Shown in pieces: positions 3,950-42,409 of a stretch of DNA of 64,000 nt. The stretch's first letter is position 1. Each line of letters begins with the position of its first letter. Source of the stretch: Rhynochetos jubatus (Eukaryota > Chordata > Aves > Eurypygiformes > Rhynochetidae). Under the pieces are notes generated by a model that did not search any database, was not told the origin of the DNA, and saw nothing but the letters and a program-made list of their open reading frames with translations. The DNA lies in contig CM050676.1 of the NCBI GenBank assembly GCA_027574665.1, positions 5,260,157 to 5,324,156 on the forward strand, in the 5' to 3' direction. A program made the translations under genes and the position numbers.

Positions 3950-4126
3950 TTAAGGCCATTGGTTTCCCGGGGGATAGTTGGGCACTGTGGGATACTCTGG
4001 CAGGCTGTTCCCAGAAAAATTGTTGTACTGGGCCTCCCTGCTTGGGGGGTTCCTCCATGTCCCGCTGTTCCACTCGTCCTGAGCTTTCTGAAAGCTTCCA
4101 CCAGCCCCTCGGTAGATTTTATGTAC
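3950..4126 (-). CDS. SCAMP4: SCAMP4 terminal coding exon, residues 172-229
   Basis: The acceptor is tcacttag. It encodes [20 protein letters not shown] and a Tyr/Pro/Asn-rich tail ending GNQWP, then TAA at 3952-3950. A longer open frame across this region in another register is a shadow. Confidence 0.96.
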   Translation of the reverse strand, partial: VHKIYRGAGGSFQKAQDEWNSGTWRNPPSREAQYNNFSGNSLPEYPTVPNYPPGNQWP

Positions 4127-10100: not shown

Positions 10101-13100
10101 TTGCATCCGTCCGGGCTCTGCCAGCGTTCAAGAGGCTTAGCCCAACTAGAAGCTCCTATTTTGGAAAACAAGTGGTAACTCTTAACAAATTCTGCGGTAG
10201 CGTGTGTCAATTAGCACAGGTGAAGAGAAATGAGAAGGGTCCAAAGAACACAAAAGCCCCTTCGGTAGCACCTGGTGATGAGCTCACAGTACCACTCTGG
10301 ACGCTGATCTCATTTATTCAGTCAGAATTAAATCCCCAAATTTCTCTTCGCCCGTGGCCAGTGACCATGTCCTGCCCATTCCTCGCTTCGCTACGTGCGG
10401 TGGCTCCGTGGCACACCTGCGCGTCACTGGCCTGGTTGGTCCTCTGCTGCCCAACGCCAGTCTGGCCTCTCCCGACTCTTCCCTCCTCTCGGCACAGACC
10501 CACCTGCCTTCAGCCACCCTGGGGGATGCTAAACAACAACACAGTTGGGTGCTTGTAAAATAACACTGACAACAGTCGGGAGACTGCAGCGTGGAGAGCA
10601 TCTGAGCCAGGCTGCTTCTTCGGGCATAAAAAAATCAGTTAAAACCCATTGTTTTACTACAAAGAAAATTTCTTCCGAGCAGCTAACAACAAGGCTTCAC
10701 ACGCAATGGCTCGGGTGTATCAATATTGGGGGAAAGAAAGGATTTTAACTATTTGAATTTATACACTAATTAGCTGTAATTCTCCAGATTTTTATTTTCA
10801 GAAGTCCAACTTCCAAACTTTCTCCAAAAGTTCCTGAATTAGAAACACCCCACCAAGCCAAGAACACCGCTGAAGTTTTAAGGAATTTCTGGTTCTCCCT
10901 GCACGTCAGGTCGGAGCTTGTTCTCCAGCAGTGGGAGCTCTGGTACAGGTTTCCCCTTATCACCGCCCACCTTAATGAAACGTTCACATCCAATTACAGT
11001 AACGAACATTCAACTTTCTACCAACGACTTCCGTGTTTCTGTTTGTAACACTGGCCTTCTGTTGCTTACCACCTTCCCTCCGTATGTGCCTCTCTCCCCA
11101 TCCCGCCCCCCAGACAATCGGGGAGAGCCCAAAAGAAAGCGTGCTGCAGATGGGAATGTAAAACTGCAGGTCTCCTCGGCCGCGTGGACTAGTTGCCCAA
11201 ATGGCTGGCACCTTTCCAGCGTGCCGTTAACTTGAATGAGGGACGCTTTGTGTAGGAAGAGTTGCAGACAAAGGCAGCTTTGCAGCATGCAACATTTAAC
11301 CAGTTCGTCTGAAGGGACAAGCAGTTTCTTCAGGCAAGAAAATTACAGAGCTCATTTCAGCATCTCTGAATAACGGAAGAACAATGGAGTGATAGATTAT
11401 GCTATTATTTATGCACACACATCTCTCTCATGCACACACCCTCTGCATCTGGAATAAAAGCCATGCCACCAAATGCGTATCTGGCAGAAAACAAGCTTTC
11501 CTTCAGTGAGGAGGGTAAATAGGATGACAAGCATTTGGGGGAAAAAAGATAAGCAAGGCAAAAAGATTTTTAATCTCCCAAAGCATTCCCTGTGCTTCTC
11601 TAGGCCTGCCACACTATTTTTCATCCGATTCCATTCCTTGGAGAAGAATGGTGGATTATCATTACTGGCTTTTGAAAGGCTAAGCCAGACAGCAGAAGCG
11701 CCGAGCCAGGAGGTCTGTTCATACAGAACGGCAGCAAACCACCGGCTGCGAGCAAGAGGATCAGCGCCCTTCTGCAGCAGGATGGCGACGTTCTGCGGGC
11801 TACGGAGAGCTAAGGAAGGGACAGCTACACCTAGAAGACACTGCTTTGACTGGGAAGGGAAATCTGCAGGTGGCACAGACAACGGTGCATTTTAGCCATC
11901 CTGTACAAGGTGGGGAGACAGGCAGCAAGCATACAGGCTGCATTCATTTCCTTGCCTAGAATTCTCCTCTTCTTAGTTTAGGTGAATTGGGAATTACTTT
12001 AAGAGGGCTATTTTGGGGAGTAAAACATCGCTTGACCTTAATAAAGGTATCGAATGGGTCTACTTTTTTACTCTTCGAATGTACTAACGGACTCTTCTAG
12101 CACTGATACTCTCTCCTTTCTGCAACAGCAGCTCTGCAGCAAAGCAGCCTAACATTTAGGCAAAAAGTTATGTTACAGGATTCCAAGATGAATCATTGTT
12201 TTTCACCAACGAATTGCAATCAAAACTTTCAAGTATGTAAGTCACCAAGATCTACGTTTTTTCACTACACACATACATTTTCCCAGCACAGGTTTCTTGT
12301 TCAACTTACAGATCCACACGTGGTAGATTCTCTTCACCAGAGACTGATAATCGATGGGAATTTCATCAGCAAAATTCTGGTAGAAACATGGTTTCAGAGG
12401 GATAAACTTGGGGAGCGGTGGGAAGTTATTCACCTTTTCTACAATGCAAGACACAGATATTAGCTGAAAGCAGAAACATTCTCATACGGCTGAGCAAGTG
12501 TAACACCCCCCACGCTGGCCCAACGCACACCCGTGGGCACCTAGGGCGACAGGAAAGGGAAAACCATCGCCAGCTCCGGCTCTTCACGTTACTGCGGCAC
12601 GTTCATCCTCACCCTGGGCACCGAACACTTGGTGCTCCGCCCTCGGCAGCTGACACGACGTTTAAACTGGCACATGCAAGGCTCAGAGCGAGGAACGGAG
12701 ACGAGCTAATGGATTCGATACCTTTACACATCAACGTAAAGGTGTGGGAAAGGAGTTGTAAGACATAAAACCTTAAAGTAAGCTCCAGGATGAGGTTCCT
12801 CTGGAGAAGGGGGAGGCCAGCAACGCCTGGGGGAAAGGGGCTGCACTGAGGTTTCCAGACACAACCTCTCAGAAAACCAAAGCAGGCGGAAAGGCTGGTG
12901 GTTGTCCAGACAAGCAGGTTTACCTTCAGACACAGCTCTGAGGATGGAGGCTGGCTGGCACGCAGAGCGGGCCTTAGGGCCTGCAGTAGACGTGTCCCTG
13001 CGACAGTAAGGAAGGTGCCTTTGGGAAGCATCTCTCAAACTGGAATTCAGTTCTCAGATGTCACCCAGTTCGGGGAAAGCAAGTCAGACATCAGGGGTGA

Positions 13101-15185: not shown

Positions 15186-15234
15186 TGCTATTAGCAGTGT
15201 CCCCTGGCGACGTTTCAGACAGATAGCAACAGAT
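15179..15234 (-). CDS. SCAMP4: SCAMP4 exon with start codon (7 coding nt plus 5' UTR)
   Basis: A polypyrimidine tract and TAG acceptor (15236-15235) are followed by 49 nt of leader, then ATGGCAG and the donor gtaagagc at 15178. The seven coding bases give Met-Ala and the first base of Glu3, completed by AA at the next exon. This reproduces the MAEK/MSEK start of SCAMP5/4. An ORF search cannot see this exon. Confidence 0.85.
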
Positions 15235-17829: not shown

Positions 17830-17963
17830 ATGAATAAAACCCCGCAAAGAACAGAGAAAGCAGCATTCCAGTGACCCACTCCCATCTCACCTTACTCAGT
17901 TGTTCCCATTTACCTGCTAATTTCCTAATAAATCTCAGCCATGGTTTAATGCTTTGAAGTCAG

Positions 17964-18012
17964 AGATGATCCTTATGGGTCCTTTCCAGCTGGAGACATT
18001 CTGTGATTATGA
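17964..18012 (+). mobile_element. Short CR1 3'-end fragment
   Basis: GATGATCCTTATGGGTCC and the following TTTCCAGCTGGAGACATTCTG match the CR1 3' UTR tail. It lies 135 bp beyond copy 1 in the same orientation, as a second, older fragment. Confidence 0.7.
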
Positions 18013-21000
18013 TGCAAAGAAGCTACAATCAAAACTACCAAATATTCCTCTCTTTGGCAACCTCTGCTTTATGAGTGACTTCACAGAAGTTCCTGGGAGA
18101 ACAACTGTAATTTCCCTACACAGATGCATTTTGGAACCGCAACACAGCATTAAGAATGTTTCTTTCTGCAAGGACAACCGCTTACGACCCATTTTTGTAC
18201 TGAATAATCAGTTCCTGAAAGGCGCCGACCTTCCACCGGTTCAGCTGCACTGAGACTCCAGCCCGACTCCTGGTGAGAGGAAAGGGAGCTTTCCCCCACG
18301 GACACCTATGGCAGCAAGCTCAAACCTTTCACAGGCACCAGCTCAGAGTCCAGGATTCAGCCCCAGGATGTTTTTGTTCAGTGCTCCAGGTTATGCTTGC
18401 ACAGGACTCGCTGTGCACCACTTAATTTGGGCAGGATTTCTGCGAACTCTTAACTGCCAGGTCTGGGGATAACAGGCCTCAGACATACAGCCAGGGAAAA
18501 ACCTTGTGTCTAGGGAGTGATGACATTGCTTGGCTTGGGTGGCCAGTGGCTAAAGTTCCTTTAGTGGGGGGAAGATTCTATGTGCAGCCTGAACACCCTC
18601 AAGTCATGCTCCAGTTGTGAGATCCTACCATAAGGAAACGAGTTTGCCGCAAATACAGATAAACAGGTATCATCCAACCACGTGTGAATCTGTGGAAGAC
18701 AACAGCTCTTTATGCACCGGAACATTTGCAGTTTAATTGGGAATAGTCAAAACCCAACATCCTGCACGCCTGCAGAGATTTCTTCGTACATAATCTGCTA
18801 TTTGTGGAAGGAGGGAAAAACCACACCAGCTAAGGAAACCACAGCGTGAAGTAAGCTTCCTTTTTCCACTGCGCTCCCCCACGGCCAACAAATAACTCCA
18901 AAGTTTGCTGTCCGACAAGAGCCCACTGGAGACAGCCAGAGCGTTTCTTCACCAGGGCTGAATTCAAAGACAAAAATGCCATTTTGTGTCATTTGGAGAG
19001 ACAGCATTTTCCTTTTAAACCAAGATACGCATGCACGTAGCACCTTTTTCTAGGCAGACCACAACATGAATACTCCGAACATGACCTCAGGGAGAAACAC
19101 CTTTCACTATCTCAGACTGGAGAAACATCTGTCACCAAATACCTCCAACAACCTGCTTGGGGCACATTATGTGGCTGCAGGTCTGTTACTACTGTGGCCC
19201 CTTGAGTGACATAAAATGTATTCTGCCTGTACTAGAGTAAATAGTTTTAAACGTTTTGGTTATTTCTCACTCCTTCTTTCCCCAAAACCAGAGAAGGGTG
19301 GTAGGGGAAATAAGTAAAGGCCAGGCCAAAAGAGGAGTGCTGACGGGGAGGTGGGAGAGCTGAACTAACTCCTGCTTTGCCATAAACCCACCCGGTGACC
19401 CTTGGCACACGCGCTAAAACCAGCTTCACAATTTCACTGGCTCCTCTCGTGCCATCTGCAGGTGTCCCAGCCAAACCCAGAAACGCCCAGTCTCCTAAGC
19501 TTTCCACCCAGCAAAGCACACCAGCTTCTGAAGCCTTACTTTAGGGTATTTTCCGTACTGCTTTTATACCTTCCCTCTGATAGGATGACTGTAGCGAGGC
19601 TAAGAGTTTCTGCTCAAGGGCTTAATCAATTTGCTGAAAGCAAACTGATGGTCAGGATCCGCGGGTAACAGCGACGGCAGAAGAACCCGCCAACACTCCC
19701 TCGTAAGACAATGACGAGGTTCATTTCATTGAACCTGAAAGCGGTTCAAGCCTACCCCTCTGGTGAGGGCTATCACCAGGGACCGGGTTTCAGAACTCAC
19801 TTCACGCTGCGAGGCAGCAGAGCCCAGACATTTCAGAAGAGCAAATGGCCTAAAAGCAAGGGCACCCCACTGGGATCCAGGAGAAGCGGATTTGAAGCCA
19901 TCAGGCTATGCAGGGAACCAACAGCCTCCAGCATTCCTGAGACAAGCGAATGCCTTGCTCGTATGCCTCTCAGTGGCATTTATAAAGGAAGTGGTGACCG
20001 GTTTTAAGAGAAAAGGCTGGGTTTGAATCTCATTCAGGTGCCCAACTCCCATCAGGAACTTCCCAAAGAGCTCAAGGCAGCAGAGGTCACTCTGCAAGGC
20101 ACCAAACCACTTGGCTCAGCTCTATGAGCCTAGACTTTGGCTGACACAGCTGGTATTTGATAGTGTTTCCCCTCCCCTCCACCCACTGCCAGCCCTCATG
20201 GAGCAGGACGCTGCCCCTTCAGCAATGCCAGGGCAATGCTTCAAATTCGATGAGGTGACAAAATCAGACAAAAAAATCAATCCCCAAAGCTGCCCAGCAC
20301 AACCAGTAAGAATGGGGAAACTGTTCACGGCAGCACTGCCGCTGAGAAAACACACAGGGAACAATACAGTGAGCAAGGGTTAGTCTCCTCACACATCGGT
20401 CCGACAGACATACCAGAGTCTCTTGGGGACACCTGGCTGCACCTGGGCATTTTGTTGCCCCCTCTCCCCCTCGTCTCCCATTCTGGAGCTTGTGAGAAAG
20501 CACAGTCGGAAGCAACTCCCCCCAGATCTCTCCCAGCCTGTTTACACAGCCATGTCTACTGCCTCAGCAGACGGGCAGAGGCCTTAATTTAGGTACCACG
20601 GAACCTGCTGCAGACAAACACTGAATTTGGTACAACTGCTTCCAGAAGGGAAGCTCGGCCACTCAGGGGCAGGACCGCAGAAGGCTCGAGAGGAAGGCAG
20701 AAAGCACAGAAACACGCGTGTGCAGGCACAAGCCTATTCTACTGCCTGTCTTGGACTGGTCTCGTGTAGAAAACCTGGGCTGCGCAGCAGCAAAACATTA
20801 GTTGGCCCAGAATAATGCTAAAAAGCAGATAAATTAATCCATCCATTACCTGCTTAATTTCTAAGCTACTACTCTGGTCATCACAGGGTTAGACTGGAGT
20901 TTCTTGAGCTAGTTAGCGCTCACAAAACCAGTAAACCAGGGCGGAGGAAACACAACCAGGGCGCTCACGTGCTGCCTCCGTCAAGGGCAGTACATGAGGA

Positions 21001-21687
21001 AGCTGCTGCCCAAGGCACGACAGTCCCGAGGGAACGACTCACGTGAACCGCCCCAGCAGGAGCCGTGCAGCCGCCTGCGCTCGCCCTGCCCCGGCACACC
21101 ACCCTCGGCCCCCGGCCTGCGCCGCTCTCCCCAGGCAGCCCCCGAGCACCAGCCGGCTGGTCCCGCGCGGCCACGGCAGAAGGCTGCTGCGAGAGGCAGA
21201 TTCCCGGGCAGCCGCTGGGGAGATGGGGGGGGCGCAGCCGGGTGCTCGCAGCCCGGGGGGAGGGGGGGGCGGCAGCAGGCGCCACGCACCCGCCGCGGTG
21301 CTCCACGAGGGGCACGGGACCCCCCCCCCCGCCGCGCTGCGCCGGGGCTGCCGCCAGCACCGCCCGCCCGCGCTGCCCCCGATAGCTGCTCCCGCCGGAG
21401 CCGACCCCGATCCCCCCCCGCCAGGGCTGTCCCCAACACCTCCCCGAGCACAGGCTGCCCCGACACCCCCTCCCCTGTCGGTCCCCCCCGCTGCCCCCAT
21501 CGCTGCCGGCCCCGGGGCTGGCCCCGTCACACCCCTCGGGCAGCCCCGTGACACCCCCCGGGCCGAGCCAGCCCTCTCACACCCCAGCCCGAGCCCCCGA
21601 GGCCGCCCGCGCCCCCGCCCGCCCCCCAGCTCCCCCATTCCTCCCCCGAGGCTGTCCCTCCGGCCCCCGCCCGGCCCGGCGCTCACC

Positions 21688-22010
21688 GTGCCCACCGGCG
21701 GCCGGAGCCCCGCTCCCCGAACCCGCCGCGGGGCACGCCGGGAAGGAGAGTCCCGCCGATGGCCCCCGCCGCGGGGCACGCCGGGAAGGAGAGTCCCGCC
21801 GATGGCCCCCGCCGCGGGGCACGCCGGGAAGGAGAGTCCCGCCGATGGCCCCCGCCGCGGGGCACGCCGGGAAGGAGAGTCCCGCCGATGGCCCCCGCCG
21901 CGGGGCACGCCGGGAAGGAGAGTCCCGCCAATGGCCGCCGCCGCGGCGCCGCCGGCCGCTCGGACCACTCTTCCCAGCGTGCCCCGCGGGGCCCGTCATG
22001 TGAGCGGCCA
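21688..22010 (-). promoter_or_regulatory. SCAMP4: SCAMP4 CpG-island promoter and noncoding first exon (proposed)
   Basis: This is the core of a dense CpG island (about 20960-22450) upstream of the start-codon exon. A good minus-strand donor (CACG then gtgagcgcc) marks the end of a likely noncoding first exon at 21687. A CCAAT box in CCGCCAATGG at about 21927-21936 and a CATGTG E-box near 21998 fit a housekeeping promoter. No TATA box is seen. The transcription start is not determined; CAGE or full-length cDNA would fix it. Confidence 0.5.
21725..21939. repeat. 43-bp minisatellite, five copies
   Basis: Units beginning GCCGCGGGGCACGCC start at 21725, 21768, 21811, 21854 and 21897, exactly 43 bp apart and nearly identical. 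The fifth differs at its end, where GCCGATGG becomes GCCAATGG and so creates a CCAAT box. Each unit carries, on the minus strand, GGGACTCTCC, which fits the GGGRNNYYCC NF-kappaB consensus. Because 43 is not a multiple of three, the long open frames across it cannot be a periodic protein repeat. Confidence 0.97.
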
Positions 22011-22804
22011 CCGGGCTCGGGGCGCGGCTGCCTCCGCTACGGCGGCCGGGAGGGACGGAATTGCCGGCGGGCGGGAGGCGCGCGTTGGGCCGGGTCCCGG
22101 CCCCGTTCGCCGCCCCGAGGGGGTGGGTTTGTCACAGCCCGATCACCAGGCGGGTGCGTGGGGCCGGGCCGGGGGTGCGTGGACGGCCCCTGCCGGGTGG
22201 GAGAGCCCCAGCGGTGGCGCCGGGGCCGAGGAGAGGCCTCCACGGGCGGGGAGCTGCGGCCGGGGGAGGTCCAGCCCTGCAGGGGCCCGGCCCGCATCGC
22301 CCCGACCCCTCCGGAGCCGTGAAAGCCCAGCCCCGACGGGGGGGTGCCCGCCCGCGCAGCCACCGCGCCCATGCGGGTGGCCTTCTCCCTTCAAACAGGC
22401 GGGTTTGGGGCAGGGGTCGAGCCGTGCCCCCCGCCAGCACCTGCAGAGCACACCGCGGGCTCCGTCTCCAACCAGCACTACGGCACCCGGCTGCCGGCCC
22501 GGCCCCCCGGCAGGTGTTGCCGCTGGGTTCGTTGAGGGCTGGGTAGGAGCCAGGTCACGGAGACTGCTGGTCCTGCCTTGTCGCTGAGCGCTGCTCTCGC
22601 CGGGGAGTAGGTCAGGATCAGCAGCAGGAACACCGGAGCCTGCCCCGTGCCTGTGTGATTGACCCCCTTCTGCGGTGCAGCAAAGCAGGGTGCTGAGGGC
22701 GGAGCAGAGCACTCTCCCAAACCGGTGTGCTGGCAGCGGTGTGCTGGCAGCCGACTTGCGCAATCCCGGATCTGTACGCTTGTGTTTGGTTCCGTGGCTC
22801 CTTA

Positions 22805-28100: not shown

Positions 28101-28986
28101 ACGGGAGCTGGGATTTGGCCACAGGCACAAGGGCAAAGCCCCTCTTCGAGAAGCGCTCGGGATGCGGAAAGGTGGCATGAGGTGGGCGGACCTGCCGAAT
28201 CGGCTCCAAAAAGCCAGGCGGTCGGCCAGCCGGACAGGGAGTTGGCCAGGCATTTGGGAAAATGCCGTGACAGAGGGCACGGAGACCCTGCAAGGCTTCT
28301 CCCACGCTGAGCTGGGCATTCTTTCCCACAAACCAGCCTCCTCCACGGGAAAATCCTGTGCTGAACCCCGCCACAGCTGGGTCTTTCTTGGCCGAGCTCC
28401 TGAGGTCACCCCATGCCCCATGGCAGAAGGAACAAAGCAATGGCTCTGCCTTTGCCCTCCCCTTGACTCCAGCCGGGAGCCCAGAGCTGCCCCCCTGGCC
28501 TGGCTCACCCCTCCCCAGCCATGTCTGCATTGCCCCTTCCTTATCCCATGCCTTGTGTTCGGGGAAAAACCGATAAAAATAGGGTTTGAACAAAATGACA
28601 AATCGGAGCTGGAGAGCACAGCCAGGGCGGCGGGGAGGGCCAGGCCGCCAGCACAGCGGCATGTGCGTGGCCTGCGCTTCCCAGGATCCGTGCGCTGCAG
28701 GGAGGAGCCGGTCCCTTACCACTGCCAGGAGCATCTCCTCTCCCGAGTGGAGATTTCACATTCATTTCACTGGTATGGCAAAGTCCGTTTGCTTTTTCCT
28801 TCAAGGTGCTTTACATTCAAGAGCTATTGCAATCCACAGCGAGGAAATGGGGCAGGGAGACACCCCAGCCCCCCAGGTAGGTTCTCTTCAGTTTGATTAT
28901 TTGATTTAAATAAAGTGCCCCAAACCTGTGAAGTTTAGTTCATCTCCACGTTTGGGGAACTGGAAGGGGGCTGGCAGCTCCCAGCC
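25190..28986 (-). other. Probable 3' UTR and downstream flank of the ROR gene
   Basis: Directly downstream of the ROR stop codon. Minus-strand AATAAA signals lie near 26474-26480, 25450-25457, 25351-25356 and 25262-25257. The block 25190-25770 is markedly AT-rich in an otherwise GC-rich region, as expected for the distal part of a long 3' UTR. ROR transcripts are known for long 3' UTRs. The exact end is unknown. Confidence 0.4.
25722..25757. repeat. AT dinucleotide microsatellite
   Basis: Alternating AT with one interruption, followed by a TTTTATCC stretch, inside the AT-rich block proposed as distal ROR 3' UTR. Confidence 0.85.
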
Positions 28987-29148
28987 TTAGCTCTCCCGTG
29001 GGTCGCTGTACTGAAGCTCCGAGTTGAAAACCTCCTTATAGAGGGGTGGGAAGTTCATGGCTGTCTCTGGGTGCAGAAGACGGAAAAATTCCAGCTTGTC
29101 CAAGTGCAGGTTGCAAATGGTCTTCATCAGTGGCAGCTTGGAAACCAT
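28987..29148 (-). CDS. RORB-like: ROR exon 10, helices 11-12 and stop
   Basis: The acceptor is tccccacag. It encodes [20 protein letters not shown], then [20 protein letters not shown] and a short tail ending DPRES, with TAA at 28989-28987. The loop between His438 and FPPLY is one residue shorter than in human RORA, RORB and RORC as I recall them, and the AF-2 helix reads LYKEVF rather than LYKELF. Confidence 0.94.
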   Translation of the reverse strand: MVSKLPLMKTICNLHLDKLEFFRLLHPETAMNFPPLYKEVFNSELQYSDPRES

Positions 29149-32100
29149 CTGTGGGGAAAGACATCAGCGCTGGTGACCGCTGGGTTCCCGGCCAGCAGCC
29201 ACTGTTTGCCCTCCCCTGGGGACAAGCGGGTGGGTTTGGGCTGGCTCTGCCCGGGGGTACCAACGGACACCCTCCCCCTTTGGGCAGCCTGGCAGCGATG
29301 CGGCTTTGCCTCTGAATCCATGTCTTTCCACAGGACAACCAGCGCCTGGGAGGCTGTGAGGAGACACCAGTGCCCCCCGTCCCCAGCCCAGCTCCGTCCT
29401 GCCCAAGCGTTCCTGAAATGGCTCATTTTGCCCCAAACGCCCACTGCCTGATGCACCACTGGTGGCACAGGACTGCCTACAGGACGGCTGCACTGGGACG
29501 GAGATGCATGGCCCTTGGAAAGAGAAATTCAACAGGTCACAGGGCTCGACCCCCAACCAACGCTCTTGAGCCCCGGCACAGCCGCAGTGCGGACACCTCC
29601 CCGAGGCACACGTGCTGCGCCCCGGCCAGGCTCCCCGTGCTGCAGGCAGCACCACTACCTTTGAGAGCTTGTCCTCAGCGGAGTGTTTCTTCTGGATCTC
29701 GTGCTGCAGGGCCACGTAGATCTTGTCCTGGAGCTTCTGCACCTTCTTGGACTCTGTCAGCCACGGGCGATCTACGGGATACAGCCAGGGACCGGGTCAG
29801 TGCCACCACAGCAGTCTCCCCCCACTGGCACAGTTCAGCGGCCTCTTGCTCTTTTAACCCTTCCTGCTGTCCAGGAGGTTTTTAGGGACAGTGGCATAGC
29901 CAGGTGGCTCCTGTCCATCCCCCAACCCCTCTGTGAGGGACACAGCTCCTCCTCCTCCTCCCACTGAGGAGTTGTGGCAGATGCATTTTGTGCATTTTCA
30001 GGTGCATTTTTACCCCAACCTCCTTTCCCAGGGATAATCAAAATCATCCAGCAGCGCTGAGATTTACGGGTCAGCTCTCCCCAGCTTTGGCATGACACAC
30101 CCCCTCCCTGGCCCGTCCCGGCTGCCACATTCCCCCCACAGCCCCCCTGTACCCGGGGAGAGCAGGACAGCGGCGGTGAAGAGGGCGAGCTCCTCGTCCG
30201 ACAGCTGCAGCCGGCATAGGGTCCTCCCCAGCTCGAAGACGGCACCAATGAGGTCATCGCAGCCTGATGGGGGGGACAGCGGGGAAGAGGGGGATGTCAC
30301 GGCTCCATGCTGCTCAGTGGCACCCCTGGGAGTGGCACTCCCGCCCCCCAGTGGCACCCAGGGCTTGGAGAGCTTTCGGAGATGAGATGGGTGAAGGAGG
30401 GTCCCCGACACCGCTGGGGCAGAAAGTGGGTCCCGACCACAGCGCACATCAACCTGATCCCAATGGGAGTGGGAGCAAAGGCGGGAGGGTCTCAGCCCCT
30501 CCTGTCCCTCGGGGATTTAGCCCAGCCATGTTTCACCCAGCTCACACCCCAGCCCCGTCTGGGTGTCGGAAGGAGAGGAGAGGAGAGCCCCCGGAGAGGC
30601 GCAGCGAAGCGGCTCTTACCGAGCGACTTGAACATCTGCACACCGCCGAACTTCCCCTCGAAGAGGACGGTGTTGTTCAAGGGGTTGAACGCGCGGATCA
30701 TGCGGATTAGGAGCACCTCGAGGCAACCTGATGTAGGCAGAGAGAGCGCAGACCAGGGCAGGGCAGGGCAGGGCAGGGCGGGGGGGGGGGGGGGTCCATC
30801 ATCCCAGGACCAAATGTAAGAAAGAGGAAAGCCCCCAGAGCAAGTTTGAAGTTCAGATTGTTCATTCCCAAGAGCAGAATGGTTATTCCAATAAATCCAA
30901 TTGGAGGTTGGGCAGGGTGTTTTTTAGAAGGTTTCCAATTGTGACCACAATATTTCACCAAAGGGAAATATTATCCAGGCATTTGCAGCCGGACACGGAG
31001 GTGGATCGAGGTCATGGTGGAGCACCGAGAGGAGAGGGTGAAAACAAAATAAATAAAAAGAAAATGGAAGGAAGAAATGAAAGAACGAGTTAAACTCCAG
31101 CGTGTCAGGCACGGCCAGCTCTGGCTTCGGGGTGCAGCACCCTGCCGTGACGCTGGCACGCATCCCCTGCGTGGGGTGAGGCACTCAGCTCCCCAGCCCC
31201 CAGAGTTTAGAGACTGGGCAGCTTTTCCACCTTTTTTGGCATTTTGGGGCTTTTGCACGTTCAGGCACAGCAGGTGGGGAATGCGGGTGTGGGCTGCCGA
31301 TGTCCGCTTCTTCCCAGTCTGTTGCTGGGAGAAGAGGCCAACCCTTTCCTCTTCTCCCTCCCTGCACCCCTTTGGGTTTGGCACCCCTTTTCCTAAGGGA
31401 AAACCCACTGTGCTCGTTTCCATCCTGGTTTCTGGGTGACACTGGTTGAGGGCGACCACAGAGAAAAGCCCCTGCTAGGAGCAACCACTCCCCACTTCCC
31501 TCTCTATACCATAGCCTTTAAAAATGACCTTAAACTCCTTCCAGCCCGGTACCCGCTCCCCGAGCACCAATGTCGAGCCCGGGGGCAACCGGGGGGGCAA
31601 TGAGGGAGGGGAGATCCAGAAAGAAAAGCACTATGGGAGAGAAACGACGGCATTTGCCTTCAGCACCATGGCTGCTGCTTGGGAGAGGCATGGGGGCGCA
31701 TGGGGCGCGCAGGGGACATGAGGGGGGTGGCGGGGACGCAAGGCGGGGCGGCAGGGTCCCCTGCTCTTACCGGCTTTCAGGAGGATGATTTGGTCGTTCT
31801 GGCAGAGCTCCATGAAGCCGTCGATGCGTTTGGCGAACTCCACCACGTACTGGATGGCATTGGAGATCTGCAGCGAGCACTGCTGCCACATGGCCTCGCA
31901 GCTCTGCCAACGCAGCAGGGACACCCCTTAGGGCTCACTGCCACCCTGTCACCTGGGCTTTGCTGCCATCCCATCACCCCATCCCCGCTGTCCCCCAGTC
32001 CCCACTGCACAGGGCAGGGACCCAGGGGGTCACATGTGGATGGTGACAGTAAGACACCTGGGACGTGACCCGCCACCCACACCCCCCCATCCCCCCCAGA

Positions 32101-35100
32101 TGGGCTTTTGCAGCTCTCAAAGCACCAAAAGACCCTCTCTTATCCTCTTCGCCTTCTTCCCTGTCTCGGCGCAGCACCGGGGGACAGCTGTGGCCCGTGC
32201 TGAGAGCTGCAGTGGCCCTTGCCGTGGTGGGGGGCCGGGGGGGCATGGCAGTGGTGCTCACCTTGCTCTGAAAGGCGCGGACCTCCTCAGGGGAGTAGAG
32301 GCTCCATGCCAGGCGCTTGAGCTCCTCCGTCGTGTACTGGCACGTCTCCAGGTGCGACTTCACCACGTTCTGGGCCACCCGGTCTGCAAGGCGAGGGCAG
32401 CAGACAGTGAGTGACAGGGACTCTGCTGGCCCCTCTGTCCCCACACCCTGATGCCATCCCCTCCCGCGTGTCCTGGGGGGCTTCTGGGGCTGGGGGCTTG
32501 AGGGTCAGAGGGGTTCCATGTGATGTCACAGGGATCTGAAGACAGATGAGGCATCTGGGCTGTCCCTGGGACAGAGGGGGGGATGCTCCGCGCAAGCGAC
32601 TGAGCTCCATCAGTGCGCAGCCTGGAGGAAGGGATGGGCTTGGGGCTGCCCCAGGAGCCGAGGCTGGGTAGGTCCCTCGCAGGGCTGGACACGTCCTGCA
32701 AGGTGCCCAGGGCTGCACCGAGCACCATCCCCAGGGCTGCACACCCCGCACATGCCTGGCATTGCGCCGGGACCGCACCGGTGCTCACCGATCTCGAGGA
32801 CGGAGATGTCGGCAGCCAGCTGGCTGCCCTCCAGCGCGCCGTGCGCGAACAGGGCCGGCTCCAGCATCAGCTCGTAGATGGACTCCTGCTTGATGAGTGT
32901 GGTGTCAGCCACGTCCAGGCTGGACTGGTCGGGCGAGGGCTGCGCCGAGGCGAGCAGGTCGAGGTTGTAGTAGGTGCTGCTGCCATCAGGGGTGAGGGGG
33001 AAGTCAAAGAGGAGCCCATCCGACAGCGTGGAGATGTCGTCCAGGTCTGAGATCCCGCTGCTGACGCTGGTGGTGTAGACACGGCTCAGGGGCTCGGGCT
33101 CATCCTTGGTGCCGCCGCTCTGCTCCTGGCTCTGCTGGTGCTTCTGCACCTCAGCGTAGAGGCTGTCCCGCTGCTTCTTCGACATGCGGCCAAACTTCAC
33201 CGCTGCCCGGGGAGGAGATACCGGCAGCGTCAGGCCGGCTTCCCCCCCACAGAGCGGCAGCCAGAACCACCCCCCTGGCTTGGGAAGGGGCCCAGCTCCC
33301 GGGGGACCATGTGGTTGAAGGGGTGTACGAGCTCCGAGCGGGGCAGGGGCCCCGTTGGACATCGCCCTCACCCCGTTTGACCCTGCATCAAATGGAGCCA
33401 ATTTACATCTTCCTGTGGAAAACGCAAAGGTATTTCTTGCTCCCCACCCCACCTTTGCCCAGGCTGGTCTCACGGGGGAAGGAGCTCTGGCCCAAACGGC
33501 CCAACTCACCCTGAGGAGGAGCAGACGGGCCCCCGGGGACCCCAGGCAGGACTCACCATCGCGGGACATGCCCAGTGCCAGGCATTTCTGCAGGCGGCAG
33601 TGCTGGCAGCGGTTGCGGTTGGTGCGGTCGATCAGGCAGTTCCTCTGCCGGGAGCAGGAGTAGCTGGCGTTGTTCTGCTGGCTCCTCCGAAAAAAACCCT
33701 GCACGGGATGGGGAGGTGTTGGGAAAGTGCCCGGCGGGATGCCAGCCCCTGCGGCTGCCCGCCCCGCCAGCACGCATCCCTGGGCTCACCTTGCAGCCTT
33801 CGCAGGTGATAACGCCGTAGTGGATCCCTGAGGACTTGTCTCCACAGATCTTGCACGGGATCACTTCAATTTGGGCTGTGGCAGAGGGAAAAGAATGGGG
33901 GCAAACCACAGTGGTTAAAGAACGGAATGTGGGAGACAGCACACCCCCCCCCTCCATCCCGGACAGCCACAGCTGGGGAAACTGAGGCATGCGAGCTGGA
34001 CTGGCCAGCAGCTCAGCCCTTCCTGCAGACCCCACGAGGATGCTTGTGCCCCAGACAGGACCCTGAAAAGACTCATGCAGGGCGTGGAGTACTCCCATCC
34101 ACTCCTCCATCCTCTCCAGCACCAAGAGACAGGCAGAAAAGCCCTCTGAGCTACGTGAGTACAGCACGTTTGTGCACCAGTCTGCCCGGACCCTGTTTTG
34201 CAATCATTCCCCTTATTTTCCAGCCAGTGTGCACGCTGGGGGGGCACCACAGACAGGGACATCCTTGGCACAGGGACCATCCCCGTCCCTGCATCCACAG
34301 TGCTCTCCTGCTGGGGGTCTGGCCCAAGCAGAGGGTCCAGGGGGCCCCCGACCTGCCCTGGCAGCTCCTTAGAAATCCCGGGACCGATATAGCCATTGCT
34401 GCCTCAAGGTCCCGACCCCCTTCCCCCGCAAATCCGCTTCCCTCCCCGCTTCTGCTTCGCTGGCACTGAGCTGCTAATAGGCTTCGTCCTCCTCATTTTC
34501 CAGCTGCCCCAGATCTGGGCTGGCTCTGCCTGCCCCGCATGCGCCGGGGGAGGACACAAGGCACCCCTGGGACTCGTACGTGCCTCCCGGCATCTCTGCA
34601 CCCTCTAATCCCCGCTCCAGCCCCGATGCCCCCCAGCCAGGCTCAGCCTGGCATTGCTCTCGAGGGTGCTGGGCAGCCGCCGCGGTGCCAAAATAGCCCC
34701 CGCGGCCAGATTATGGTTATTTCAGATCTCCTGGGTCTGTGCAAATCCCCAGCGTGGGTAATTCCCTTCTGCCTCTCTCCTCCCCTGGGAGCCACCAGTT
34801 CAGTTTGTGGGCCGCTGCTCTGCGGTGACAGTCCCGGTGCTTGGCCAGCGTCACCTGCAACCCGGCACCCAGCAGTGCCCTGGGGTCCCTCGCCGCTTCT
34901 GGGGAGGCTGGGCTGGGTCAGCACGAGTCTTGCTGTGCAGTGGGACAGCCGGGCGGCCAACAGGCCCCCGGGATGCTACCGGTCCCTCCCAGCCATACAG
35001 GGGAAGGACTTGCCCCAGGTCTGGGTGCAAGCGGAGGGACAGATCCCTCCTTCATCGCTGATTCACTGCTCAGCTCCTGGCCCAAACGCACCAGGCAATT

Positions 35101-38100
35101 TTGGGGTTCACCCCTCCTGGGTGAACAGCTTCTCCCAGGGCTGTGTGTTGCTCCCCCCTGAACCAGGGTGGCCACATTCCACCCCAGCACCTCCCCAGAG
35201 CCTCTGCCCGTGCCTCCACTGTGGCTTTGGGCAGCTTAGCTGCCCACCCGGGGCAGGCAGGGAGCGGGCAGGGCATCCTCCCACCCTCCAGTCCTAGTCT
35301 GCCCCCCGCAACTCCGCACTGGCATCGCAACCCCAAGGTAGGGGGACAGAGGTACCGGCAGGGCAACGTGTGGCCACCCCCATCTTGCCAGTGAGCTCTG
35401 ATGACTGAGACACCCCCCCCCAGTTCCCCAGCTCCCACCACCCCCTTCTCCCATGCCGTCCGAGAGGGGTGCAACCTGCAAACCATGGGGACCCCCCCGC
35501 CCTGAAGCCCTGTTGCTATTGCCCAGGGAGGAGTGTGGGGGCAGAACGGGGGTGGCGGTGCCATGGGGGGCACAGGGAGGTGGTGCCACCCCCAGCAGGA
35601 AGCAGCGTCGGTTCGTTATGCAACGTAATTGCAGCCGCCGGCAGCGCTGGGTGATACATCGCCGGTGTGCCGCGCCCTCACGCCCGCAGCCGATACTCCC
35701 GGGCCCCGCAATTACCGGCACCGCGTGCCCGGCACAACAGTCGCGGGGAGCAGGGCCCTCGCACCCACCGGCACCCGCCGAGCAGAGCCCAAGGGTGCCG
35801 CTCTGCTTGCCCCATGGCGCCCCGAAAGCTCTTCACTGGCTGCCAGCGATGGCTTCGTGTGGTGCTGATGGTGAAATCCTGCCCCCACACCCCAGGCCCA
35901 GGGAAGCCGCCGCGAGAGACCCCCATAGCCAGCACAGCTAAGGGTACGTGGGGACGATGCTGTCCTGGCTGCTCTGGAGCTGAGCGTCGCCCCTGGATGC
36001 TGCAAAGCAGAAGCCCCAGTCGCTCGCTCTGTGCCTGGAGCCTCTTGGGGCTCTAATTAGCATCCTGCTAATTACCTGGCCGTGCCCGCTGCTGGCACCT
36101 GACCCGCTCCTACGACGTTCGCCCCAAATAACTGACGTGGAGATACGGCTGTAACTCTGGCGTGATGGCAATTACAGCCCAGGACAGTGCTTAATTGCCA
36201 CTCTCTTTGTAAGCCCCGGCTGAATCACCGTGCCGGCTCCCTCGGCATCCCCTCGTGCCACGGCCACATCGCCCCCGGGACCCCCAGACATCCCCCTGGG
36301 GCAAACCCAGCGGGATGGGGAGGGATGTGGGTGCTTGTGGGGTGGGCACAGCAGCACCCCACACCACCAAAATCTCACCACGACTGGGGGGAAAAGAATC
36401 ACAGCACCCCACATTCTGGGCCCCTTGTCGTGCCTCAGTTTCCCCACCGGAACACTGGGCTCCTCCCACCACAGCCCTGTGAGCATCAGCCATGCTGTGC
36501 AAAACGGAGGAGGTTATTTAGGTGGTGGCAAACCCCTTCCCCTGCTTGGTGTGGGGGGAGCAGGCGGCAAAACTCCTCCCTGGGGCCAACGGGTCTAAAA
36601 TAGGGGGCAGAAAAAAAAAAAGGGTTAAAAACATTAAATAATAATCTCCAGCCGGCAATTAAAATGTCCCAGCCGCAGTATTTGCTCTCCTCCCACTGTA
36701 AACATCTCTTGCCCAACTCCCGCCCTTATGTAAGTGGCACCGTGGCACCGTCCAGCCCAGGCTCGGCCGTGCGCGGCGCTCGGCCCTGGGTCCGGTGGCT
36801 GCGCGTGGCCCCGCGGCCAGAGCCATCCTGTCCCACTGACACACTTTCTGCCCATGGCCCCACCGGTTGTGTAACGCCGCTGCCGTTAACCCTTCCCACG
36901 GCTGCACCCCGACCTCCCGCCGCTGGCGATGGGGCCTTGGGGCGTTTTGGGGTGATACCTCGAGCTGGGGACACCCGCTTGCTGCCCTGAGCTGCGGCTC
37001 TCCGGGAGGACACAGGTCCTGTACAGTCCCCAGGTCCCCTGATACCACCCGACCCTGGCCCTGCGTGTTCCCCTCCGCTTGTCCCGACCCAGCAGGCGGC
37101 TCCGGTGGTTTCGGCAGAGCCAGAGCCGCCTGCCCGGAGCAAGCCTCGGCCTTCCTCCCGAGCCGGCACACTCTCCTCTACATCGCCTCCGCCCCGAGGG
37201 CGGGCATCCCTCTTGCACCCCAAAACAAGACAGACCCCACAGGATCCGACCATGGGGTCTGGACCCTCCCCCTGTGACACAGAGACCACAAATGGCCCCC
37301 TCCTCCTCCTCCTCCCCCCCACGCCTCCCCTCAGCTGTATTTTCTCACCGTTGGGGGGCAGGGGGGATCACCCCAAAACCCTCAGCACCCTACTGAGCCC
37401 CAGGACGTGCTGTGGTCCTGCTGCTGCAGGGGCTTTTTGGAGCTGTCCCCCCCGCCCCCAGCCAGCACGATGGGGCTGGGTGCCCCTGGCCGAGGGGTGA
37501 AGACTCCGGGGGGGAGGGGGCAGTTTAGGGGGGCACCGGCCACCCCAACAAAGCCTTCAATGCAGACCCCTCCCCGGGGCGAGCCCGCACACCCTTCAAC
37601 CCATGAGGCTGGGGTCAGGATATGACCACCCCGTCCCCTGGGTGGGCCACAGAAGCAAACCCACCGTGGGGGCCTGGATGCTCCTTTTTAGGGGGGCAGA
37701 AGAGCAGCCCAGCTCCAGGTGTTTCGGGGGTGGCTCCGTGCCCCGTGGCTGTCGCTGCCCCAGATACCCCCTCGGCTGCCAGGGCGAGAGCTGGGGCAGG
37801 CAGCATCCCTGGTGCCCCCACTCATTACCCAGCAAACCTGCTGGGAAAGTAGGTCTGTGCCCCATCCCGCTGCCTTGATCGATGCCGCCGGACGGGCACC
37901 TCCGGTAATTAGCAGCAGCCCCGCAGCCCTCCCTCCCCAGCCTCAACCAGGGCACCGGGATGCTCTGATGCTCTGCCACCACCGTCCTCTCCCCTCCGGC
38001 TCAGCACCCCCCGGGCGCACCCAGAGCAGGGGGGGAGGATGGGTCCACGGGGACACGCAGGGTCTTGCGATGCCATCCCGCCTCCTCATCTCTGCCCCAA

Positions 38101-41100
38101 AACCTGGCTCCGCTCCCTCGTTCCCTGCGGCAACCTCCATCCCTGGGGACCCGGCACTGCTCCCAGTCGCACCCACCTCCGGCAGCAGTTAGCCACCACT
38201 GTGTTTTGGGAAGGCGGCCGTGGGGGTGACGGAAGAGGAGAAACGAGTCAATAAAAGCGACAATCACCGCTTTACAGCTGCCGCGGGCTCTGCTTTTAGA
38301 CTGGCTCCAGTGCCGGCGCCGCGGCCATCACTGCCGGCGAATCCCATCCCCAGCCGTGCGCCCCGCTACGCGGTGGTTAACCCCGAATGCGATGTGCGAA
38401 GGGCTCCAGGCCACAGGGGCCAAGCAGGCAACCGATGGGCTCAAGGAACGTTAAATTACACAACTCCGGCTCTGTGCTGGGCTGCGAGGCTGGAGGAGGG
38501 AACCGGTTTTTTTAATTGATCAGCAAAGATTTCCTGGAAACTTTGGACCAGAATGGGGTTCAGCCACTCTCCCCCTACCCTGGGGTGACCTCTGGCCACT
38601 TCCGCTCACGGCCACGCAGCCAGCGGCTTCGCAGCCGCCCCGACCCCTGGCAACGCGCCGGTTTTCTCCCATCCCGTGGTGCAGCACATGTCCCCAGCTC
38701 GGAAATCACGGTGAGCAGGAGTGTTCGTCCAGAAGCAGCGACGGGCAGGCAAGGAGGGTCCCCCACAGCCACCCAGCCTCGGCTGCTCCGCTTCACCGGC
38801 TCCTGCGCCGCACGGCACGGCTCCAAGGCCAACCCGCCGGCACGGGACGCAGCCCTTTGCACTTTGGCTGGGGCAGGAGGGTGGCAAAGGTGCGGGGGTG
38901 GGGAGGGGGACCCGCCACCGGCCCGGGGTGGGGAGAAACCGGGCTGGGGTGGGAGATTCCGCCCCCTCCGGCCCCACAGCTAATTCAGGGGGGAATTATC
39001 TCCATGGGGCTAAATAAAGGCGGTGAGAGCGGCTCCGCTCACCACATCCAATAAACCGGGCGCGATTTAGACATTAGCAGCTCTTTAAATAGCTGCTGCC
39101 GAGTTCAAAGTTAAACGTGACGGGGGAGGAGGGACGGGAGGGATGGGCAGGACGGGCAGGGGATGCTGCCAGCAGGGCCCCAGCCAGGCTGCAGGGTTGA
39201 CCCACTGCCACCTATGGGGACAGGGACCAATGCCCCCCACCCCTGCACTCTCCCCCTCCGGGTGCTGCCTCCCCCCAGTGTTATCGGGATCGAAGATCCC
39301 AAATCCTGGCTGGATCCCTTGGGACCCCACACTGCCAGTGGCCACCTTTCTCCTCCAACATTAATTTTCGGGAGGTGTAGTGCACACGTATCCCCATCCC
39401 CACCATCCCCATCCCGTGGTGAAGCCGTCGTGCGGCAGGGCCGATGGGTGCTGGCTGTCTTCGCCCGCGCCAGCGTGCGCACGCTGCCTAAACGGGCAGG
39501 GAAGCTCCTCCTCCACCCTCTCTGATTTTTCCAATGACAGATCTAGGTCACTAGGACAAGTCGGAAAGGCTGCCGAGCCACCGCACGCTCCTCGCCACGC
39601 CGCTTGCAAAACAAGTGAGCAGGAGGGCTGGAAACCCTATAGGATTATACAAGGCAAAGCCTCTCGCCCGGCCCCAGCACAGGGGAGAACAGGAGCGAGG
39701 AGCTGCTCTGGCCCCTGGGGAAAGGGGCAGAGCGGAAGTGGTTTTGGGGAAGAAAACAGAGATTGAATCGATTCGGCGTCACCCTGCGGCGCTTGGGCTT
39801 CGGCGAGATGGGGACCCTGCGCTGGGTGGGACTGCGGGAAAAATGCCTGAAGGGGGAAAATGATGTGATGTCAGGGGGGTTTGGCCCTTTTTTAGGGCCA
39901 ACAAACGATAATTGGGGGGGGGGGGGGGGGAAGAAAAAAAAAATAGAAAACCAAAAGGAAAAGTTCACCCAGCTGCTAATTAAGGTCGGTGCCGGCTGTG
40001 CAAGCGCTACCTAAGAGCCAGGCAGTGTTATTAATTAGGCAGGCGTTAATGCTTCCCTCTGTACTAATAAAGGTGAAATCCTGGGCTGTCACGGGGTGGG
40101 AAGGGGATGCAGGGGGCTTGCCTCGCCCTCACACGGCCCTGGCCCCACCGTTACACAAGAGTGCGGCGGGTGGCAGAACCGCAGCACCCGCAGCCACGCT
40201 GGGGAGGGAAGAAAACCCATTTGAGGAGCTCGAAGACATACGCCCCCAAAAACACACCTAAAGGCGACCAGCCCCAAACCACACCTAAATACATGCCCCC
40301 CCCAAGCTGTACCCGAAGACATGTACAGCACAACTTTAAGCGAGTCCTGACAGGGGCGAAGGGCTCGGGCACGGGGGTGATGAGGGCAAACTGCTGTAAA
40401 GGGGGATAAAAATCCCACCCCAGGGTGGCAGGTCCCAGCCGAGCTCCCAGCAGCTCCGTCAGGAACAGGCACAGGGAGAGCTGGGTCCAGTCACCGCTGC
40501 GTCACCATCACCGGGCCGCAGCGGATCGTCCCACCGAGCCTTCCTCCCGCCATCCTCCTCCTCCCAACCGCCCGCTCTGCCAAGCGGAGGGGTGAAAAGT
40601 AGGATTCGCCTTTAATAACGGTTAAAATCAGGCGGGTGCCGGCGCGGCTAGCCCCCTCCCCTGGAGAAGGGGCACCCGAAATTGCAGCGGGTCCCTCGCC
40701 CATCCCCACAGCAGCCTCCCTCCGGCTGCACCGGCCGGGCCCCAAACCGCCCCCCAAGCTGCAGGGAGGGGGACAAGGGGGGAGACCCACCGTAAATCCA
40801 GCCCTGGTGGGAGCAACATATTGAAGAGGAGATTAAGGGGTTTAGTGCGAGGAAAAGCTTAAGAGCGGGTCTAAGCCGGCGGCGGAAAGCAAAGCAAAAT
40901 AAACAAGAATTTTATTCCCAATGGCAGGGGGAGCTGGAGCCGCCGGACCGGCCCCGCGGGGCTGCCGCGGGACCCCCCCCATATCACCGACGGCGCTGAT
41001 GCGGGTCCCGCCGGGGGCTGCTGCCGGATCCCCCCCCGTCCCTCTCCGGCGGAGCTGATGCGCGGTCCCCCTCCGAACCCCCGGCGGGACTGATACCGGG

Positions 41101-41199
41101 TCTCCCCCGGCCCCCACCGGGGACAACTTTTGCCGCTGCCTCCCCGCAGCCGGGGGGTCCCTCCCCTCCCCCCAGACACCCCCCGGACTCACCTCGCAT
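28987..41199 (-). CDS. RORB-like: ROR-family nuclear receptor, RORB-like (complete, ten coding exons, 465 aa)
   Basis: Joining 41199-41193, 33875-33790, 33698-33557, 33202-32789, 32383-32262, 31903-31771, 30727-30620, 30263-30153, 29771-29659 and 29148-28987 gives 465 aa in frame; the exon phases agree throughout. Residues 10-70 form two C4 zinc fingers (C10, C13, C27, C30; C46, C52, C62, C65) with P-box CEGCK, and the C-terminal extension follows at [13 protein letters not shown]. The hinge (about 90-216) is diverged but keeps QPSPDQS and the sumoylation-type IKQE. The ligand-binding domain (about 217-453) contains [20 protein letters not shown] and ends in AF-2 LYKEVF (448-453). RORs bind AGGTCA half-sites with an AT-rich 5' flank as monomers. 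The DNA-binding domain is closest to RORB by eye, but SCAMP4 next door argues against the RORB locus. RORC or an extra ohnologue remain possible. The gene spans only 12 kb. Confidence 0.93.
29659..29771 (-). CDS. RORB-like: ROR exon 9, helices 9-10
   Basis: The acceptor is tatcccgtag and the donor gtagtggt. It encodes [20 protein letters not shown] and [17 protein letters not shown], the family PDR-WL and KVQKLQ-KIY pattern. Confidence 0.95.
30153..30263 (-). CDS. RORB-like: ROR exon 8, ligand-binding domain
   Basis: The acceptor is cccccatcag and the donor gtacaggg. It encodes [20 protein letters not shown] and [16 protein letters not shown]. The donor lies within CCGGGTACA; splicing there restores the family SPDR junction. 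Confidence 0.93.
30620..30727 (-). CDS. RORB-like: ROR exon 7, ligand-binding domain
   Basis: The acceptor is gcctacatcag and the donor gtaagagc. It encodes [20 protein letters not shown] and [29 protein letters not shown] is the RORB-type sequence, distinct from RORC as I recall it. Confidence 0.95.
30755..30796. repeat. GGGCA repeat running into a G-run
   Basis: Four to five GGGCA units followed by about 16 G, in the intron before ROR exon 7. Likely unstable and capable of quadruplex formation. Confidence 0.9.
31771..31903 (-). CDS. RORB-like: ROR exon 6, helices 3-5 of the ligand-binding domain
   Basis: The acceptor is gcgttggcag and the donor gtaagagc. It encodes [20 protein letters not shown], then [20 protein letters not shown] and LLKA. 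This is the most conserved part of the domain, including the coactivator-groove lysine in FAKR. Confidence 0.96.
32262..32383 (-). CDS. RORB-like: ROR exon 5, start of ligand-binding domain
   Basis: The acceptor is cgccttgcag and the donor gtgagcac. It encodes [20 protein letters not shown] and [20 protein letters not shown], which match helix 1-2 of RORA/RORB. Confidence 0.95.
32789..33202 (-). CDS. RORB-like: ROR exon 4, C-terminal extension and hinge
   Basis: The acceptor is ccccgggcag and the donor gtgagcac. It begins [20 protein letters not shown], which is conserved. The following hinge is acidic and Ser/Leu/Asp-rich ([18 protein letters not shown]) and unlike RORB until [10 protein letters not shown] and IKQESIYEL. 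It ends at the start of the ligand-binding domain (ISVLEI). Confidence 0.94.
33557..33698 (-). CDS. RORB-like: ROR exon 3, second zinc finger
   Basis: The acceptor is cccgtgcag and the donor gtgagtcc. It encodes [20 protein letters not shown] followed by [20 protein letters not shown] and [16 protein letters not shown] has Ser where RORB, as I recall it, has Pro. Confidence 0.96.
33790..33875 (-). CDS. RORB-like: ROR exon 2, first zinc finger
   Basis: The acceptor is tgccacag and the donor gtgagccc. It encodes residues 3-31, with [20 protein letters not shown] and the P-box CEGCK. The split after the first finger is the classic nuclear receptor exon boundary. Confidence 0.96.
36040..36210. 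promoter_or_regulatory. Candidate homeodomain-rich noncoding element in ROR intron 1
   Basis: CTCTAATTAGCATCCTGCTA continues into another TAATTA, then GGCAATTACAG and GCTTAATTGCC, within 170 bp. Such clustering is unusual in flanking DNA this GC-rich. It would suit homeodomain input to a ROR expressed in retina or brain, but function is inferred only from motif density. Confidence 0.3.
39913..39960 (+). repeat. G18 followed by purine tract
   Basis: ATAATT is followed by about 18-19 G, then GAAG and an A-run. The 48-bp strand is almost purely purine. Length is likely polymorphic or misassembled. Confidence 0.9.
41193..41199 (-). CDS. RORB-like: ROR first coding exon segment (Met-Arg plus one base)
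   Basis: ATGCGAG followed by the donor gtgagtcc. Joined to the next exon it gives [11 protein letters not shown], the start I recall for RORB isoform 1. A at -3 gives a good start context. The segment has only seven coding bases and is invisible to ORF calling. Confidence 0.85.
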
Positions 41200-41290
41200 C
41201 GTGGCCAGCGGCGGTCAGGAGCGCGCCGGGGGGCGCATGGGGCGGCGCGGGGGTCCCTGCGGCGGAGCGCGGCGGGGCGGGGAGCGGAGG

Positions 41291-41340
41291 CACCGGGCGG
41301 CACCGGGCGGCACCGGGAGGCACCGGGCGGCACCGGGCGG
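41291..41340. repeat. 10-bp tandem array in ROR 5' region
   Basis: Five perfect or one-mismatch copies of CACCGGGCGG in direct register, 92-148 nt upstream of the ROR ATG. The period equals about one helical turn. Confidence 0.95.
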
Positions 41341-41463
41341 CTGTGGCACCTGCCCCTCCGCGGCGCCGCTGACCCACTTCTGCCCGAGCATGCGGCCGTT
41401 CACATGACGAGCCCGCCCCGCCCCGCCCCCCCAAATCGGTTTCACTTCTAGCCCCACCTCCTG

Positions 41464-41492
41464 CCCTTCCTCCTCCTCCTCCTCCTCCATCT
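41464..41492 (+). repeat. TCC trinucleotide microsatellite
   Basis: About eight TCC units upstream of the ROR promoter core. It forms a pyrimidine tract on the plus strand. Confidence 0.85.
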
Positions 41493-42409
41493 CCATCCCC
41501 GTCCGTATCCCTATCCCCGCCGCTCCCGCCGTGCCGGTGCTCGGCGCTGCACATGGGCGCTGCACAGGGGGTGCCCGGCGCCCCCTCGGTGCCGGGGGCT
41601 GCTCGACCCCCCGGGGCGGGGCGCTGGGGGCTGTAGCAGCGGGGTGCTCGGCGCTGCACCCCCCCGGCCGCTGCCCGCCCATGGGAGGGCCGTGCTGGTG
41701 CCCGTCCTGTCCCGGCTCGCCCAGGCACGGGGCCGGCTGCGTGTCCCGCTGAATCACCGCACCTCCGCGCTTCACCCCGCTCGGCTCCGCTGGCCCCCCA
41801 CGGGGTGCTCCGCGTGGCACAGGGATGCTCACCCCCAGGCAGGACAGAGTGAAGGGGACCCTGGAGAAGGCGCAGACACCAGGTGCGGTGCACCTGGAGG
41901 ACGTGGGAAGCGCTGGGACCCCCAAGCAGCCCTAACGTGTCCCCACAACAGGGTGCAGATGCTGAGGTCCAGGGGGACGCCCTGGCTGGGAGAGCAGCAG
42001 TTCGGAAAGTGCACGGTGGAAGCAGCAGGGAGCTTTGGAGGTGGCAGCAAGCCATTCCCACCCCATCCTTCATGCTGCGATGCTCTGGGGCCTGGGGTTG
42101 CATCCTGGATAACAGGGCACTCCGACGCGCTGCCATAATAATTGCCAAGAAATGCTGACCCTGGACCCCACAACAAGACCCCACGGTGCAGTGCCAGAGG
42201 GGTAGGCATGGGACAAAGCCCCATGGCTGGGGTTTGCGGTGTGACTCTTGCACCAGGTCACCAGAGTCCCCATGGTGCCACATGACAGGGGTGGAGATGG
42301 TTGGTCCGTGTCACGGCCAAGCCAGGGCTCAGGGTATGAGGGACACGGTGCTCAGCAGCACCAAGGGATGCCTGGGTCCTGGGGACGGTGGCACTGGCCG
42401 GCAGACCTG

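Follow-up and report, generated by a model that had tools for sequence, protein, structure and literature searches.

Gene content of the window

The stretch of DNA analysed here (the window) comprises 64,000 nucleotides of the genome of the bird Rhynochetos jubatus (contig C31, 5260157-5324156), and carries two recognisable genes, both on the minus strand: SCAMP4 and a complete gene for a nuclear receptor of the ROR group. The latter, which in all probability is the bird RORD (NR1F4), is the subject of this work.

The ROR gene runs from 41199 to 28987, and its ten coding exons join into a frame of 1398 bases encoding 465 amino acids and a stop, exactly the coordinates and length at which the original prediction, an earlier reading of the bare sequence, had placed a complete ROR. 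The first coding exon (41193..41199) contributes only seven coding bases including the start codon (ATGCGAG) and lies in a CpG-rich stretch (40601..41800). The first zinc finger of the DNA-binding domain is encoded by exon 2 (33790..33875) and the second by exon 3 (33557..33698), followed by exon 4 (32789..33202), which holds the C-terminal extension of that domain, the hinge and the start of the ligand-binding domain. The ligand-binding domain continues through exons 5 (32262..32383), 6 (31771..31903), 7 (30620..30727, with Ile312 where the PDB chains of RORA, RORB and RORG have cysteine), 8 (30153..30263) and 9 (29659..29771). Exon 10 (28987..29148) runs from helix 11 to helix 12 and the stop codon, and between His427 and Tyr449 it lacks one residue relative to RORA, RORB and RORG. 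The frame is open and intact, GT..AG borders are seen at each of the nine introns, and the GC content at third positions is 0.867.

The protein has both domains that mark the nuclear receptor superfamily, a C4 zinc-finger DNA-binding domain (Pfam zf-C4, PF00105, 5.4e-33, residues 9-77) and a ligand-binding domain (Hormone_recep, PF00104, 2e-29, residues 261-436). In a search of the PDB sequences the strongest match was to a RORB chain (1.9e-112), followed by RORA (2.8e-90) and RORG (4.4e-74), and the best 60 of the 560 matches were all to ROR-alpha, ROR-beta or ROR-gamma, which places the protein in the ROR group (NR1F). When the DNA-binding domain was searched by itself ROR-gamma came first (1.2e-55) and NR1D1 next (7.7e-34).

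Relationship to RORA, RORB and RORC

The same genome (1.331 Gb in 148 contigs) has four ROR loci on four contigs: the window gene on C31 and three others, identified by exon-wise tblastn as RORB on C48, RORA on C15 and RORC on C35. The window gene is thus none of RORA, RORB and RORC, for each of these has a locus of its own elsewhere in the genome, that of RORC having been found in part. A genome search with the DNA-binding domain returned 66 matches, seven of them at the four ROR loci, the other 59 not being inspected singly; with the ligand-binding domain 28 matches were obtained, of which C31, C48 and C15 had six apiece, the remaining ten being at 29 to 52% identity. At the RORC locus DNA-binding exons of its own were found together with a first ligand-binding exon (L009:6436-6320), which is closest to RORG (61%, vs 43 to 50% for the others). 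No further RORC exons were found in L009 or L023, in 20 kb or genome-wide, and a run of 200 N (L009:6093-6292) follows the first ligand-binding exon; the truncation is probably an assembly gap rather than a true loss.

Over the DNA-binding region the window protein and RORB of the same genome are identical at 97 of 98 residues, the single difference being a serine in the window protein for a proline. In the ligand-binding domain 154 of 240 residues are shared with this RORB, 130 of 243 with RORA of the same genome and 116 of 243 with PDB RORG, and in the hinge 43 of 96 aligned residues are identical to those of human RORB. The ligand-binding domain of the genome's true RORB, on the other hand, agrees with the PDB RORB chain 1n4h at 236 of 241 residues, and that of its RORA with the PDB RORA chain at 241 of 244. 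As RORA and RORB share 151 of 241 residues, the window protein stands about as far from RORB as RORA does, well short of orthologue-level identity, and since RORB and RORA of this genome are nearly unchanged we conclude that the window gene is not RORB. The description of a DNA-binding domain close to that of RORB, joined to a hinge and ligand-binding domain below orthologue level, had been part of the original prediction and is borne out by these figures. The cysteines of the zinc fingers are in place, and so is helix 12. Among 100 ligand-binding columns that are invariant across PDB RORA, RORB and RORG the window protein differs at 12, including the cysteine to isoleucine change at 312, and the His427-Tyr449 pair is present with a spacing of 22 rather than 23.

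A tree was built from seven sequences, namely the window protein, RORB and RORA each from this genome and from the PDB, PDB RORG, and REV-ERB-beta as outgroup; RORC of this genome was left out because its ligand-binding exons beyond the first were not found. The window protein was recovered as sister of the RORB pair (approximate likelihood ratio test 98, ultrafast bootstrap 96), on a branch of 0.385 as compared with about 0.17 for RORB, and an earlier tree of five sequences had given the same link (98.5/95). The approximately unbiased (AU) test rejected placing the window protein by RORB of this genome (p = 0.0037), by PDB RORB (0.0067), with RORG (0.0032), with RORA (0.012) and outside RORA and RORB together (0.043). 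The original prediction had been staked on two points, that the protein would fall outside the RORB and RORC clades and that the genome would hold RORA, RORB and RORC elsewhere; the loci on C15, C48 and C35 agree with the second, and the AU test agrees with the first, where the Shimodaira-Hasegawa (SH) test does not reject placement inside the RORB clade or with RORG (p = 0.058 to 0.079).

Genomic neighbourhood

Five coding exons of SCAMP4 lie on the minus strand within 12445..3953, with ends taken from alignment: 12311..12445 (NNFPPLP...), 9104..9259, 5920..6021, 4827..4946 and the last, 3953..4126, which is followed by TAA; the exon with the start codon was not found. The encoded protein matches the Pfam SCAMP family (3.8e-57) and shares 176 of 225 residues with human SCAMP4 as against 131 of 224 with human SCAMP5, and it is therefore taken to be SCAMP4 and not the RORA-linked SCAMP5. 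The distance from the ROR stop codon to the nearest SCAMP4 exon found is 16.5 kb, within the 25 kb that had been claimed for a bona fide SCAMP4. A CpG-rich stretch (20901..22500) is possibly the SCAMP4 promoter region, and contains a GC-rich tandem repeat of a 43-bp unit (21722-21955; 5.5 copies, 97% match). Along C31 the order of genes is CSNK1G2 (5.214 to 5.228 Mb, minus strand), SCAMP4 (minus), the ROR gene (minus) and ABHD17A (5.333 to 5.337 Mb, plus strand), the last lying 8.6 kb past the end of the window. ADAT3, a human neighbour nested at SCAMP4, gave no match to a human query either in the window (12500-29000) or in the genome, an empty answer that shows little.

Relatives of four gene families recur on the contigs of the RORs. 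All 19 SCAMP matches in the genome fall on C31, C48, C35 and, at two loci, C15. The same four contigs carry 19 of the 24 HCN matches (70 to 97% identity), the other five lying elsewhere at 23 to 32%. Ten of the 11 ABHD17 matches are on C31, C15 and C48 and none on C35, and the highest-scoring CSNK1G matches are likewise on C31, C15 and C48 with none on C35; on further contigs, among them C5, C22 and C17, the CSNK1G query hit other kinases more weakly, at up to 69%. Together the four contigs make up 9.2% of the genome, and C31 by itself 0.55%. The original prediction had held that the ROR regions belong to one paralogon and had proposed that every ROR locus of the same genome be listed with its neighbours; this listing gives SCAMP and HCN relatives on the contigs of all four loci and ABHD17 and CSNK1G relatives on those of three, in agreement with it. 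The window gene is located in the fourth, SCAMP4-bearing or 19p13-type, member of that paralogon.

In a coding-score screen of 52 segments of the window only the exons of SCAMP4 and the ROR gene were recognisable by eye, the part from 41.2 to 64 kb being covered without a protein-family search, and an Rfam gathering search and ARAGORN gave no matches in the window. Octamers typical of the ends of CR1 elements (ATTCTATG-like) were seen at 17807-17830 and 53247-53262, three matches where 0.01 would be expected, in keeping with a bird genome. A further tandem repeat (57639-57861) has a unit of 63 to 64 bp in about three copies and contains CCTATAGCC motifs.

Identity of the gene

We consider it very likely, with a probability of roughly 0.93, that we are dealing with RORD (NR1F4) of birds, the fourth ROR to have arisen in the two early-vertebrate genome duplications, kept in the paralogon member that carries SCAMP4 (the human 19p13.3 type). 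The gene is sister to RORB and, by the AU test, outside the RORB clade.

Several points weigh against this identification. By the SH test none of the competing positions is rejected (p = 0.058 to 0.2). In the best tree RORA is sister to RORB and RORD with RORG outside (93.8/89), unlike the pairing of RORA with RORC reported by Sakai et al. (PMC5553892), although the AU test does not reject their arrangement either, in which RORB is paired with RORD and RORA with RORC (p = 0.13). The tree contains no RORD from any other species, and orthology to the published chicken and fish RORD consequently rests on description and not on alignment. Finally, the linkage families were picked by their human map positions, for their fit to the 1q, 5q/9q, 15q and 19p paralogon, and no unlinked control family was included, so that the linkage bears out an expectation and should not be read as an unbiased survey.

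A different history would be a recent duplication of RORB in the bird lineage, with the copy moved beside SCAMP4 and then evolving fast. The sister position to RORB on a longer branch, the nearly identical DNA-binding domain and the SH test (p = 0.074) would all suit such a copy; however, the AU test rejects the window protein inside the RORB clade, the introns of the gene show that it is not a retrocopy, SCAMP and HCN members accompany the ROR on each of the four contigs, and the same subtype is reported from gar, frog and turtle (PMC5553892), all of which make a recent duplicate very improbable. Equally improbable, in our estimation, is that the gene is correctly identified as RORD but is non-functional or has no ligand-controlled role in birds. 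It is true that 12 of the 100 invariant columns are changed and that the stretch from helix 11 to helix 12 has lost a residue, yet there is no damage to the frame, the splice sites, the cysteines of the zinc fingers or helix 12, and the changes in the ligand-binding domain are mostly conservative. The least credible of the alternatives is a misreading, with the gene being no more than the species' own orthologue of RORB or RORC, since the top PDB matches are indeed RORB but C48 carries a RORB nearly identical to the PDB chain and C35 a separate RORC. The loci of the same genome and the AU test thus led us to set aside a RORB orthologue, a RORC orthologue and a recent RORB duplicate.

The RORD identification places the gene in a clade that is already in print. 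In 2017, Sakai et al. (PMC5553892) described four ROR clades, named the fourth nr1f4 or rord, listed its members in chicken ('RORblike', XP_003642912.2), turtle, frog, gar and teleosts with none in mammals, and considered that the ROR subtypes are conceivably ohnologs. The original prediction of a 19p13-type ROR ohnologue absent from mammals and different from RORB is therefore right, being supported by the RORs of the same genome, the AU test and the paralogon linkage, but it is not new, the gene, the ohnologue idea and the absence from mammals having been known since that paper. The strings 'scamp' and 'synten' have no uses in its main text, and a literature search, with most subscription journals outside its reach, listed no other paper on RORD in birds. 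What is added here is an intact bird gene model, the four RORs of one genome, the linkage over four contigs and the exact microsynteny. Scans of the collections viral_contigs and genome_contigs for relatives gave 5 and 18 pattern matches, none of which was confirmed, as expected of collections without vertebrates.

Human nuclear-receptor lists omit RORD and the name NR1F4 is rare, occurring in four papers of the literature searched, so that the gene may readily be given the wrong label 'RORB-like' or 'rorc'. ABHD17A and SCAMP4 are adjacent in human 19p13.3, and the loss of RORD in mammals is thus predicted to have occurred between them. With the gene pinned between these neighbours the loss can be tested at one interval, and monotremes and marsupials could show an intact or decaying copy. 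In birds, a fourth ROR should be counted in studies of the clock, the retina and immunity.

Proposed function

Because its DNA-contacting region is nearly identical to that of RORB, bird RORD would be expected to bind as a monomer to the RORB-type element, an AT-rich extension followed by RGGTCA. It might then act as a transcriptional activator, in competition with REV-ERB at clock and retinoid genes. The His427-Tyr449 pair may keep helix 12 in its active position; the corresponding residues of human ROR-gamma, His479 and Tyr502, were described as hydrogen-bonded in the active state (PMC6255837). A small lipophilic ligand would presumably tune the receptor, and our best guess is an oxidised retinoid. 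In medaka, RORd1 was reported to respond to 4-oxygenated retinoic acids and to activate cyp26a1 and bmal1a reporters (PMC5553892). In cavefish, crispants of rorca, the gene that Sakai et al. (PMC5553892) equate with rord1, were reported to sleep less (2.26 h vs 5.16 h per day; PMC8297936).

As judged from the protein sequence, bird RORD may be an activator whose helix-12 switch is modified. A single-sequence AlphaFold model of the ligand-binding domain was too poor for use (mean predicted local distance difference test score 46.3). We tentatively raise a further idea, doubtful as it is, that the switch has been re-tuned by the spacing of 22 instead of 23 and by the isoleucine in place of the pocket-side cysteine of MCRA. 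Its RORB-type DNA-binding domain would then still take RORD to ROR elements, but the ligand would be another one, perhaps an oxidised retinoid, and clock or eye genes of birds would have a retinoid input that was lost in mammals with the gene.

The ROR element WAWNTRGGTCA is matched at three places in the window, at 16946 on the plus strand and at 52279 and 49390 on the minus strand, counted without a chance control.

Comparison with known receptors

With RORA (NR1F1) and RORC (NR1F3) the window protein has in common the domains, the helix-12 motif PPLYKE-V/L-F and the His-Tyr pair, and it differs from them in the ligand-binding domain. To RORB (NR1F2) it is tied by the DNA-binding region and by a first exon that starts with MRA, as in human RORB, but it is set apart by the ligand-binding domain, the hinge, the contig and the neighbouring genes. 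The closest known system is RORD (NR1F4) as described by Sakai et al. (PMC5553892), comprising rord1 (Ensembl rorca) and rord2 in teleosts and genes called 'RORB-like' in chicken, turtle, frog and gar. Like these, the window gene is closest to RORB and occurs beside RORA, RORB and RORC in a non-mammal; it differs in being present in one copy in its genome as against two in teleosts, and the likeness is one of description and not of sequence alignment.

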